Of a DNA stretch of 64,000 nucleotides, positions 38,111 to 40,204 are shown one piece after another. Both the position numbers and the translations under genes were made by a program. How positions within the stretch are numbered: the first letter of the stretch is position 1; each line of letters opens with the position of its first letter. Location of the stretch: assembly GCA_022821085.1 (NCBI GenBank), contig JAJEEG010000006.1:2005330-2069329 (forward strand), written 5' to 3'. This DNA is from Candidatus Latescibacterota bacterium (GTDB lineage Bacteria; JAAXHH01). Under the pieces are notes generated by a model, which had not been told where the DNA came from, ran no database searches, and saw only the letters and a program-made list of their open reading frames with translations.

Positions 38111-38161
38111 GTAAACTGTCGGGATTTTAGGGTGATCGTGTCGCGAGGTGCGGTAAAACGT

Positions 38162-38537
38162 CCAAGCCGACCGTAAGCCGAGTTCTGTGCCTTCGCGGTG
38201 AAGGTGGCGATCATCTATCTGGGACGGCTGTCGCCAGCCGCCTCGTGCGACCTAACCCGAGAGTCTCCGGTTTCCCGGCGGTCGAGACGGGCCGTCTCTC
38301 CTCTCCTATTCGGTCTTGCACCAGATGGGGTTTGTCCTGCCGGACCGGTTACCCGGACCGCGGTGAGCTCTTACCTCGCCTTTTCACCTTTGCCTCCCCG
38401 AAGGGATCGGCCGTGTGTTTTCTGTGACACTTTCCGTGGCATCACTGCCCCCTGCCGTTAGCAGGCATCCCGCCCTGCGGTGCTCGGACTTTCCTCGTCC
38501 GCCTTGCCGGCGAACGCGATCGCCTGGTCGACTTGGG
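38162..38537 (-). ncRNA. rnpB: RNase P RNA (bacterial class A-like)
   Basis: Minus-strand sequence contains the universal RNase P RNA blocks: GAGGAAAGTCCGAGCACC near the 5' end, the GGGTAACCGG and GCAAGACCGAATAGG middle segments, and ACAGAACTCGGCTTAC at the 3' end. The P1 helix pairs CCAAGTCGACC (38536-38526) with GGTCGGCTTGG (38172-38162). The pairing continues outward (GTAAAACGTC with GACGTTTTAC), so the transcript or precursor may extend about 10 bases each way. It cleaves tRNA 5' leaders. Open frames inside it are incidental. Confidence 0.95.
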
Positions 38538-38567
38538 ACGTTTTACATTTTTAAATATAACAAAGGA

Positions 38568-38592
38568 CGCGCCGCGGTTCAACCCCGGCGCG
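38568..38592 (-). terminator. Hairpin between the zinc-ribbon gene and rnpB
   Basis: CGCGCCG and CGGCGCG (38568-38574, 38586-38592) form a 7-bp stem with an 11-base loop, just past the zinc-ribbon stop; a weak T stretch follows on the minus strand. It may end that transcript or shape the rnpB precursor. Confidence 0.45.
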
Positions 38593-38594
38593 GT

Positions 38595-39311
38595 TCAATA
38601 CTCCAAACCTTCTTCGAGGATCAGGATCCGGCCGCAACTCTCACAGGACACCAGCTTTCGCCCCTGGCGGATCTGCATGACGACCTGCAGCGGGATCACG
38701 TGGAAACAGCCGGAGCAGGCCCCCTTCTTTACCGGTACGACGGTCATCCCCCGCAGGTTCCGCCGTATCCGGTCGTACACCTTCAGGACCTGGTTCTCCA
38801 CGCGTATGGCCATCCGCTTCCGCTCGTCCATTTTTACGGCGACGTCCTCGTCCACCGCCGACAGCCTGGACTGGAGCGTCGTGCGTTCTTCGCTGAAGCG
38901 TTCGATGAGCGATTCGGTCTCGCCGCGTATGGTCTCCAGCGCCTCCTGCTCGGTCTCGGCATCGGAAATCAACTGCAGTATCGCGTCTTCGAGTTCGGAG
39001 ATACGGTTCTTATGCGCCTGGATCTCCGCCTGGAGGGCGTCGTACTCCTTGTTGGTCTTCACGCTGTAAAGCTGACCCTGGTACTTCTTGATCTGCTCCT
39101 GTGCGGCCTGCAGGTCCCGTTCGTACTGACGCCTGTTCTTATCGATGTCCGCGACCTTCGTTTCCTGGTCCGTAAGTCTGGTTTCCGCCTCGGACTGGAC
39201 CGTCTCCATCGTCTCCAGCTGGTTGGGTATGTCTACCTTGTACTGTTCGAGTTCGTGCAAGTCCTGATCCGTCTTCTGCAATTCCAAAAGCGCTCTCAAG
39301 CTTTCCTGCAT
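38595..39311 (-). CDS. Coiled-coil protein with C4-type zinc ribbon (CT398 family)
   Basis: A 238-residue protein: a long antiparallel coiled coil (residues about 5-185) and a C-terminal zinc ribbon with C-S-G-C and C-E-S-C. Proteins of this family (Chlamydia CT398, Helicobacter HP0958 relatives) have been linked to sigma-54 or secretion in single cases, but no general role is known. Two sigma-54-type activators occur in this window, though not adjacent. It lies directly upstream of rnpB on the same strand and downstream of the small terminated leader described separately. Confidence 0.88.
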   Translation of the reverse strand: MQESLRALLELQKTDQDLHELEQYKVDIPNQLETMETVQSEAETRLTDQETKVADIDKNRRQYERDLQAAQEQIKKYQGQLYSVKTNKEYDALQAEIQAHKNRISELEDAILQLISDAETEQEALETIRGETESLIERFSEERTTLQSRLSAVDEDVAVKMDERKRMAIRVENQVLKVYDRIRRNLRGMTVVPVKKGACSGCFHVIPLQVVMQIRQGRKLVSCESCGRILILEEGLEY

Positions 39312-39347
39312 GCGACCTCAGCCCTCCATGGAGATGAAAAGGCGGAC

Positions 39348-39376
39348 AAAAAAAAATGCACGCTGACCGTGCATTT
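39348..39376 (-). terminator. Strong intrinsic terminator in front of the zinc-ribbon gene
   Basis: AAATGCACG - CTGAC - CGTGCATTT (39354-39376) is a 9-bp perfect stem; on the minus strand nine T residues follow (39356-39348). It lies between a good minus-strand promoter and the zinc-ribbon start. Confidence 0.85.
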
Positions 39377-39505
39377 CCTTTCGTTTCAATCTGGTTTTAC
39401 CGCGCCCCGGGTCCGAAGAGGCAACTGCAGTCGGACCATACGGACAATAGGGCACGTAGACATATCCATCCTTTTCCCGATACTACTTGATTTTTTGATC
39501 ATAGA
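39348..39505 (-). ncRNA. Candidate small RNA or attenuated leader
   Basis: A promoter (39511-39539) and a terminator (39348-39376) on the minus strand bound a transcript of about 155 bases. It contains a 7-bp stem (GGTCCGA with TCGGACC, 39437-39431 and 39416-39410). It also contains a 27-codon frame (start ATG 39467, MDMSTCPIVR) preceded by AAAAGG. It could be a stand-alone sRNA or a leader whose terminator controls the zinc-ribbon gene. It matches no class I recognise; it lacks the long rod of 6S RNA. Confidence 0.5.
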
Positions 39506-39510
39506 CGATA

Positions 39511-39539
39511 AAGATAATGCCGAAGGCATGTAGTGTCAA
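39511..39539 (-). promoter_or_regulatory. Promoter for the small terminated transcript
   Basis: TTGACA (39539-39534) and TATCTT (39516-39511) with a 17-bp spacer on the minus strand. It is divergent from the RidA gene. Confidence 0.7.
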
Positions 39540-39560
39540 CCAAAATCAGGGGAGGTTATC

Positions 39561-40079
39561 ATGGGCTCGACCATACGAATCCGGGGCGGAAGGAAAGAAG
39601 ACAGTTTCGAGTTGAATATCGTGATTTCCAGGTGGCTGTTCGCCGGCCTCACGGCGCTGCTGGTCGCCGCCGTTTCGCTGGGGTACGCCGTCATGCCCGC
39701 CCAGTCGCAGGACGACCGGGGCCGAAAGGCGGTTAACCCGGGCGCGAACTACAGCGAGGCCATCGAGGCGGGCGATTTCGTGTTCCTCTCAGGCAAGATC
39801 GCGGCCGTCCGGGGCCGGATCATCCCAGGCGGTATCGAGGCGGAAACGAAAATGGTCATGGACAACCTGCAGACGGCGCTGGCCAAGTCCGGGCTGACCA
39901 TGGACGACGTGGTCAAGGCCACGGTGTTTCTCAACGACCTGAACGACTTCTCCGCCATGAACGAAGTGTACCGGTCCTACTACACGGGCGATCCGCCTGC
40001 CCGGTCCACCATACAGTCCGGTGTCGTGCTGAATGCCGGCATCGAGATCGACCTGATCGCCTACCGCGGCGGCAAGTAG
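39561..40079 (+). CDS. Membrane-anchored or exported RidA/YjgF family protein
   Basis: A 172-residue protein: an N-terminal charged segment, one hydrophobic helix (WLFAGLTALLVAAVSLGYAV, about residues 31-50) and a full RidA domain (AGDFVFLSGKIA, ETKMVMDNLQTALAKSG, VKATVFLNDLNDFSAMNEVY, PARSTIQSGVV). The catalytic-type arginine of RidA deaminases is present in PARST. RidA proteins normally hydrolyse reactive enamines/imines in the cytosol; a membrane anchor is unusual. GGGGAGG lies 4-5 bases before the ATG. The stop codon lies inside a 9-copy 11-bp repeat. Confidence 0.88.
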   Translation: MGSTIRIRGGRKEDSFELNIVISRWLFAGLTALLVAAVSLGYAVMPAQSQDDRGRKAVNPGANYSEAIEAGDFVFLSGKIAAVRGRIIPGGIEAETKMVMDNLQTALAKSGLTMDDVVKATVFLNDLNDFSAMNEVYRSYYTGDPPARSTIQSGVVLNAGIEIDLIAYRGGK

Positions 40080-40168
40080 CCGGCAAGTAGCCGGCAAGTA
40101 GCCGGCGAGCAGGCGGCAAGTAGTCGGCGAACAGGCGGCAAGTAGTCGGCAGGTAGTCGGCAGGTAGT
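40070..40168 (+). repeat. 11-bp tandem repeat, nine copies, starting at the RidA stop codon
   Basis: Unit CGGCAAGTAGC/T repeats nine times without gaps, with variants CGGCGAGCAGG and CGGCGAACAGG. The first unit contains the last codons and TAG of the RidA gene. Each unit shifts the frame, and several units carry TAG. Confidence 0.95.
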
Positions 40169-40204
40169 CGTCAATTTGTCGCCGGATCATTCCCTCAGAG
40201 GCGA

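Follow-up and report, generated by a model that had tools for sequence, protein, structure and literature searches.

A promoter and terminator-like hairpin conserved ahead of the CT398-family gene, a probable leader attenuator in Candidatus Latescibacterota

A 64,000-nucleotide stretch of DNA from a Candidatus Latescibacterota bacterium, here called the window, carries on its minus strand a sigma-70-type promoter, a terminator-like hairpin and a CT398-family gene, in that order, and the hairpin is specifically associated with CT398 across several phyla. The element is probably the 5' leader of the CT398 gene acting as a transcription attenuator. As judged from the sequence, it is quite likely that this is a CT398 leader with a working terminator; regulated read-through into the gene is favoured on balance, and regulation by the CT398 protein itself is put forward, by analogy, only tentatively.

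The features of the locus are listed in Table 1. A preliminary description made from the letters alone had noted a near-consensus minus-strand promoter, a 7-bp hairpin and a 9-bp terminator stem with nine T residues lying before, not after, the nearest gene; all of these were found as described. The gene product matches Pfam CT398_CC (2.2e-17) and Zn_ribbon_9 (4.9e-11) and, by sequence, PDB entries 4ilo (CT398) and 3na7 (HP0958). Downstream neighbours are rnpB and, further on, recJ. The divergent RidA-family gene encodes an N-terminal membrane-anchor-like segment, and its promoter may overlap the CT398 leader region on the opposite strand.

Table 1. Features of the CT398 locus, with positions counted in the window
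Feature	Position	Strand	Basis
Sigma-70-type promoter of the CT398 leader, TTGACA-17-TATCTT (-35 box 39539-39534, 17-base spacer, -10 box 39516-39511)	39511..39539	-	Consensus scan and phylum comparison
Putative leader RNA, ~155 nt if terminated	39346..39504	-	Start inferred ~7 nt past the -10 box
Leader helix P1 (39456-39450 with 39407-39401, P2 nested inside)	39401..39456	-	Genus alignment
Leader helix P2, the 7-bp hairpin of the preliminary description (GGTCCGA 39437-39431 / TCGGACC 39416-39410)	39410..39437	-	Genus alignment
27-codon open frame MDMSTCPIVRMVRLQLPLRTRGAVKPD, translation doubtful (codons 39469-39389, TGA 39388-39386)	39386..39469	-	Open in 12/12 congeners
Intrinsic-terminator hairpin AAATGCACG-GTCAG-CGTGCATTT then T-run (9-bp stem, arms 39376-39368 and 39362-39354, loop GTCAG; nine T at 39356-39348, three inside the stem)	39348..39376	-	Scan, comparison, ~-11 kcal/mol
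CT398-family gene, coiled-coil hairpin and C4 zinc ribbon, the putatively controlled gene (start codon ATG 39311, separated from the T-run by 36 nt)	38595..39311	-	Pfam
Separate rnpB promoter, TTGAAC-17-TATATT	38554..38582	-	Scan and congener comparison
rnpB, RNase P RNA class A	38159..38535	-	Rfam RF00010, 273.4 bits
RidA-family gene, divergent from CT398	39561..40079	+	

The chance level of the motifs was estimated by simple consensus scans over 4 kb, which gave four promoter-like matches (1.0 expected) and four terminator-like matches (3.5 expected), both near background. A chance origin of promoter and hairpin is excluded because both are conserved across the phylum, sampled here by 16 genomes, 12 of them in the genus of the window; the named relatives are MAGs filed under Latescibacterota, Gemmatimonadetes or Zixiibacteriota. 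TTGACA-17-TAnnTT lies upstream of CT398 in all 15 phylum sequences scored, and the 16th genome (G002), read by eye, has the variant TTGACT-17-TATCTT. The hairpin is present in 16/16 genomes, always ahead of CT398 and in one copy per genome, as AAATGCAC...GTGCATTTTTT in the 12 congeners and as AAGTGCAC...GTGCACTTTTT in the four genomes of other genera. A scan of the 36 nt between hairpin and CT398 start gave no promoter match, so CT398 expression must rely on read-through. The arrangement of an attenuator leader was thus found in full, with a promoter upstream, a terminator between promoter and gene, and no other promoter. Because a conserved terminator sequence may also be an uptake repeat, a general terminator or uptake-sequence repeat was considered and rejected, the hairpin being single copy.

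The preliminary description had proposed a search for its hairpins before CT398 homologs, and the terminator hairpin was found there across several phyla. CT398 relatives are encoded at 80 named loci. The usual order in Zixibacteria, Calditrichota and Latescibacteria is tRNA-Met(CAT) and/or tRNA-Val(CAC), a spacer (median tRNA-to-hairpin length 103 nt), a terminator-like hairpin and CT398, often with rnpB further on, and the hairpin frequently has the form AGTGCA...TGCACT. Under one scoring rule and threshold, a terminator-like hairpin lies at most 160 nt upstream of CT398 in 73 of 96 loci, compared with 23 of 213 other genes of the same loci, a comparison in which some genomes are counted twice and the loci are not all independent. 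About a quarter of the CT398 loci carry no clear hairpin, which means that the gene does not strictly require one. Of the CT398 hairpins, 33/73 contain RTGCA in the 5' arm (22/62 with the loci of the window's phylum mostly excluded), as do 3/267 of the remaining terminator-like hairpins. The pattern AGTGCA...TGCACTTTT matches 15 of 16 genomes from other groups, chosen mainly for carrying the AGTGCA-form hairpin, and nearly always at the CT398 site; the extra matches are palindromic sites counted double and three sites of different sequence. According to PMC3372290, tRNA-Met, dnaG, rpoD and RNase P RNA are neighbours of DUF164/COG1579 (CT398/HP0958), and to this extent the neighbourhood was already known, but the synteny section of that paper mentions no leader hairpin.

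From this layout we infer that termination takes place at the hairpin and that read-through is regulated. RNA polymerase would initiate at TTGACA-17-TATCTT and transcribe ~155 nt; at the hairpin and U-run it would either stop, releasing a short leader RNA, or read on into CT398. Many polymerases should stop by default, since hairpin and U-run have all the features of an intrinsic terminator. The leading candidate for a regulator is CT398 itself, or else a partner of it, which may melt the leader hairpin of the CT398 gene; the 27-codon frame is a less likely sensor. The CT398 protein is favoured because a member of its family has antitermination activity. BB0713 of Borrelia, a CT398-family protein, anneals and displaces RNA strands as an RNA chaperone, unwinds the trpL terminator to a moderate degree in vitro, shows strong in vivo antitermination at that terminator in E. 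coli RL211 and co-sediments with RNAP subunits (PMC13285594). Several other proteins also scored in the antitermination assay (PMC13285594), so the BB0713 activity is not specific evidence for the CT398 leader hairpin. A second relative, HP0958 of H. pylori, binds the flaA transcript (PMC3372290). Autogenous control is suggested by the circumstance that a family with antitermination activity has a conserved terminator before its own gene. The wider proposal, that CT398-family proteins are RNAP-associated antiterminators melting their own AGTGCAC...GTGCACT leader hairpin in a loop common to several phyla, is likewise speculative. If true, autogenous antitermination would give this widespread and poorly understood family (CT398/DUF164) a molecular function, and the conserved, nearly single-copy hairpin provides a concrete RNA target.

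Comparable arrangements are known. In E. coli greA/GraL, a leader terminator releases a short RNA, about one third of transcription reads through, and autoregulation acts via the leader (PMC6829880). As in the CT398 element, an intrinsic terminator lies within the 5' leader, and the gene that follows encodes a protein associated with RNAP; the likeness is one of arrangement, with no sequence relation claimed. GreA, however, raises termination, whereas a BB0713-type activity would lower it, and at CT398 the regulation is putative. The B. subtilis rplJL operon is regulated by its own product, which acts on a terminator in the leader (PMC4538822), the autogenous attenuation proposed here for CT398, but rplJL has an antiterminator and an anti-antiterminator, neither of which is conserved in the CT398 leader. 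The CT398 element is absent from Rfam and would belong among the leader attenuators; proof of autogenous antitermination would set it apart there as a new variant.

Among the 12 congeners the leader has a mean pairwise identity of ~88%, against 79% at CT398 third codon positions, a conservation part of which may be owed to the promoter of the divergently oriented RidA gene. In the genus alignment, pairing holds in 96.7% of the cells of P1, P2 and terminator; none of 500 shuffles reaches the covariation score of the three helices. Compensatory changes, proposed earlier as a check, were found in part: only two of 23 pairs change on both sides, so support for P1 and P2 is modest. P1 is paired in 96% of cells, with pair 52/103 occurring as UG, AU and UA, and is a lineage-specific helix; P2 is paired in 95% and shows no two-sided change. 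The inner pair of the terminator is U-A instead of G-C in two species and a C.A mismatch in two others. The full leader folds with a stability z of -2.8, and the leader without the terminator folds no better than shuffles; the excess stability therefore comes from the terminator. Identity with 6S RNA was rejected by eye, the ends forming no closing stem.

The alternative that survives best, a real though lesser possibility, is an unregulated partial terminator, whose fixed read-through fraction would set the CT398 dose below a strong promoter (a tRNA promoter in other phyla). No conserved, mutually exclusive antiterminator pairing was found, alternative pairings varying between congeners. Searches of Rfam at the gathering threshold and at E<=10 gave no riboswitch, 6S, sRNA or leader family, only rnpB, the best other match (E = 7) being on the opposite strand. 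The leader body is recognisable within the genus only, with a best match in other genera of E 0.05. These three results, and the unremarkable fold of the remainder, all favour a simple partial terminator. In all 16 genomes, nevertheless, the strong terminator is retained together with a promoter close to consensus, which exceeds what a fixed ratio needs, as does a hairpin sequence common to several phyla.

The preliminary description had offered two readings, one as a new sRNA and one as an attenuated leader. The leader is favoured, the hairpin standing with CT398 across phyla and CT398 having no other visible promoter. An independent trans-acting sRNA gene, lying by chance before CT398, is unlikely, though it would account for a single-copy element with its own promoter and terminator (no further copies were found in the phylum genomes), for a leader better conserved among congeners than CT398 third codon positions and for the genus-level helices. 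Such a gene would leave CT398 without a promoter. The terminated ~155-nt RNA might conceivably have an sRNA function of its own besides. Beyond the genus only the promoter type and the hairpin persist, and in other phyla tRNAs and unrelated spacers occupy the place of the leader body. An RNA body conserved independently of CT398 was therefore not found; what is conserved more widely is a hairpin tied to CT398, apparently a gate dedicated to this gene and not a small RNA standing by itself.

Control by ribosomes, in which translation of the 27-codon frame decides whether the terminator forms, is improbable. The frame is present as first described, open in 12/12 congeners without indels and ending 9 nt before the terminator stem, but the AAAAGG taken for its ribosome site directly abuts the first ATG; the second, better spaced ATG is AGG in 3/12 congeners, so the start codon is variable. 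Variable columns fall evenly by codon position (9/11/9), and pN/pS is 0.66 compared with 0.19 for CT398. The peptide is thus under no visible selection, and no coding signature was found among the 12 congeners. In other phyla, Shine-Dalgarno frames reach the hairpin at 32 of 55 loci (18.6 expected from shuffles), which speaks for leader peptides, but these frames are not universal and are unlike one another. Ribosome-site frames ending at or inside the hairpin are alike in the near relatives L086/L089 (MLRYLAFLSTTETR...) and L053/L068 (MQKIYMREMKYCLGFKHFIKFYKT) and are possible lineage-specific leader peptides. No such frame is evident in L015/L016, nor consistently in Latescibacteria, and a conserved antiterminator is again lacking. 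The system bmrB-bmrCD also has a short frame upstream of an intrinsic terminator ahead of the regulated gene (PMC4191407), but there the terminator lies inside the frame and has an alternative antiterminator, whereas the CT398-leader frame ends before the stem and shows no coding signature.

Which gene the hairpin serves is indicated by one phylum in which CT398 and the tRNA genes have become separated. The window's phylum retains the tRNA-Met/tRNA-Val tandem at another place than CT398. In the three genomes read (G000, G013 and G012) the tandem lies behind a DnaG-like gene, with no CT398 after it, and ends shortly past tRNA-Val in a different terminator, e.g. ACGGAGGC...GTCTCCGTTTTTT; in locus L113 (G000:C2:160500-166500) the tRNA pair is at contig positions 163544-163697. 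The AGTGCAC-type hairpin stayed beside CT398, a gene that in this phylum has a promoter of its own, and a KSB1 locus without tRNA (L105) has kept the hairpin AAAAGTGTACC...GGTACACTTTT. Because both the split and the tRNA-less locus keep hairpin and CT398 together, the hairpin is best seen as a CT398 leader element. It is most likely not the terminator of the tRNA genes, and its main role is probably not that of an sRNA. That it is a relic terminator of an ancestral tRNA-Met/tRNA-Val operon with no CT398 role is very unlikely: it does come after tRNA genes in Zixibacteria and Calditrichota, and a dnaG/rpoD/tRNA-Met/DUF164 synteny is published (PMC3372290), but it went with CT398 on the separation, the tRNA pair has another terminator, and the median spacer is long for a tRNA terminator.

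The earlier suggestion that the leader perhaps also controls rnpB is weakened for the genus of the window. There the gap between CT398 and rnpB contains another conserved promoter, whose TATATT-type box stands ahead of rnpB in every congener read, and rnpB could therefore be transcribed independently of the attenuator. In other genera, in which no separate rnpB promoter is evident, the leader may yet control rnpB, and co-transcription of CT398 and rnpB is possible where the gap is ~50 nt (L014). A literature search found no paper joining DUF164 and rnpB. In the congener loci L011 and L010 short repeats have widened the gap between CT398 and rnpB, with the TATATT box kept, and in L015 an RNase H-like gene seems, by eye, to be placed between the two genes. 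Short tandem repeats, GCCGGCTACTTGCC-like, are also found in the window at 40080-40190, in the intergenic stretch that follows the RidA-family gene.
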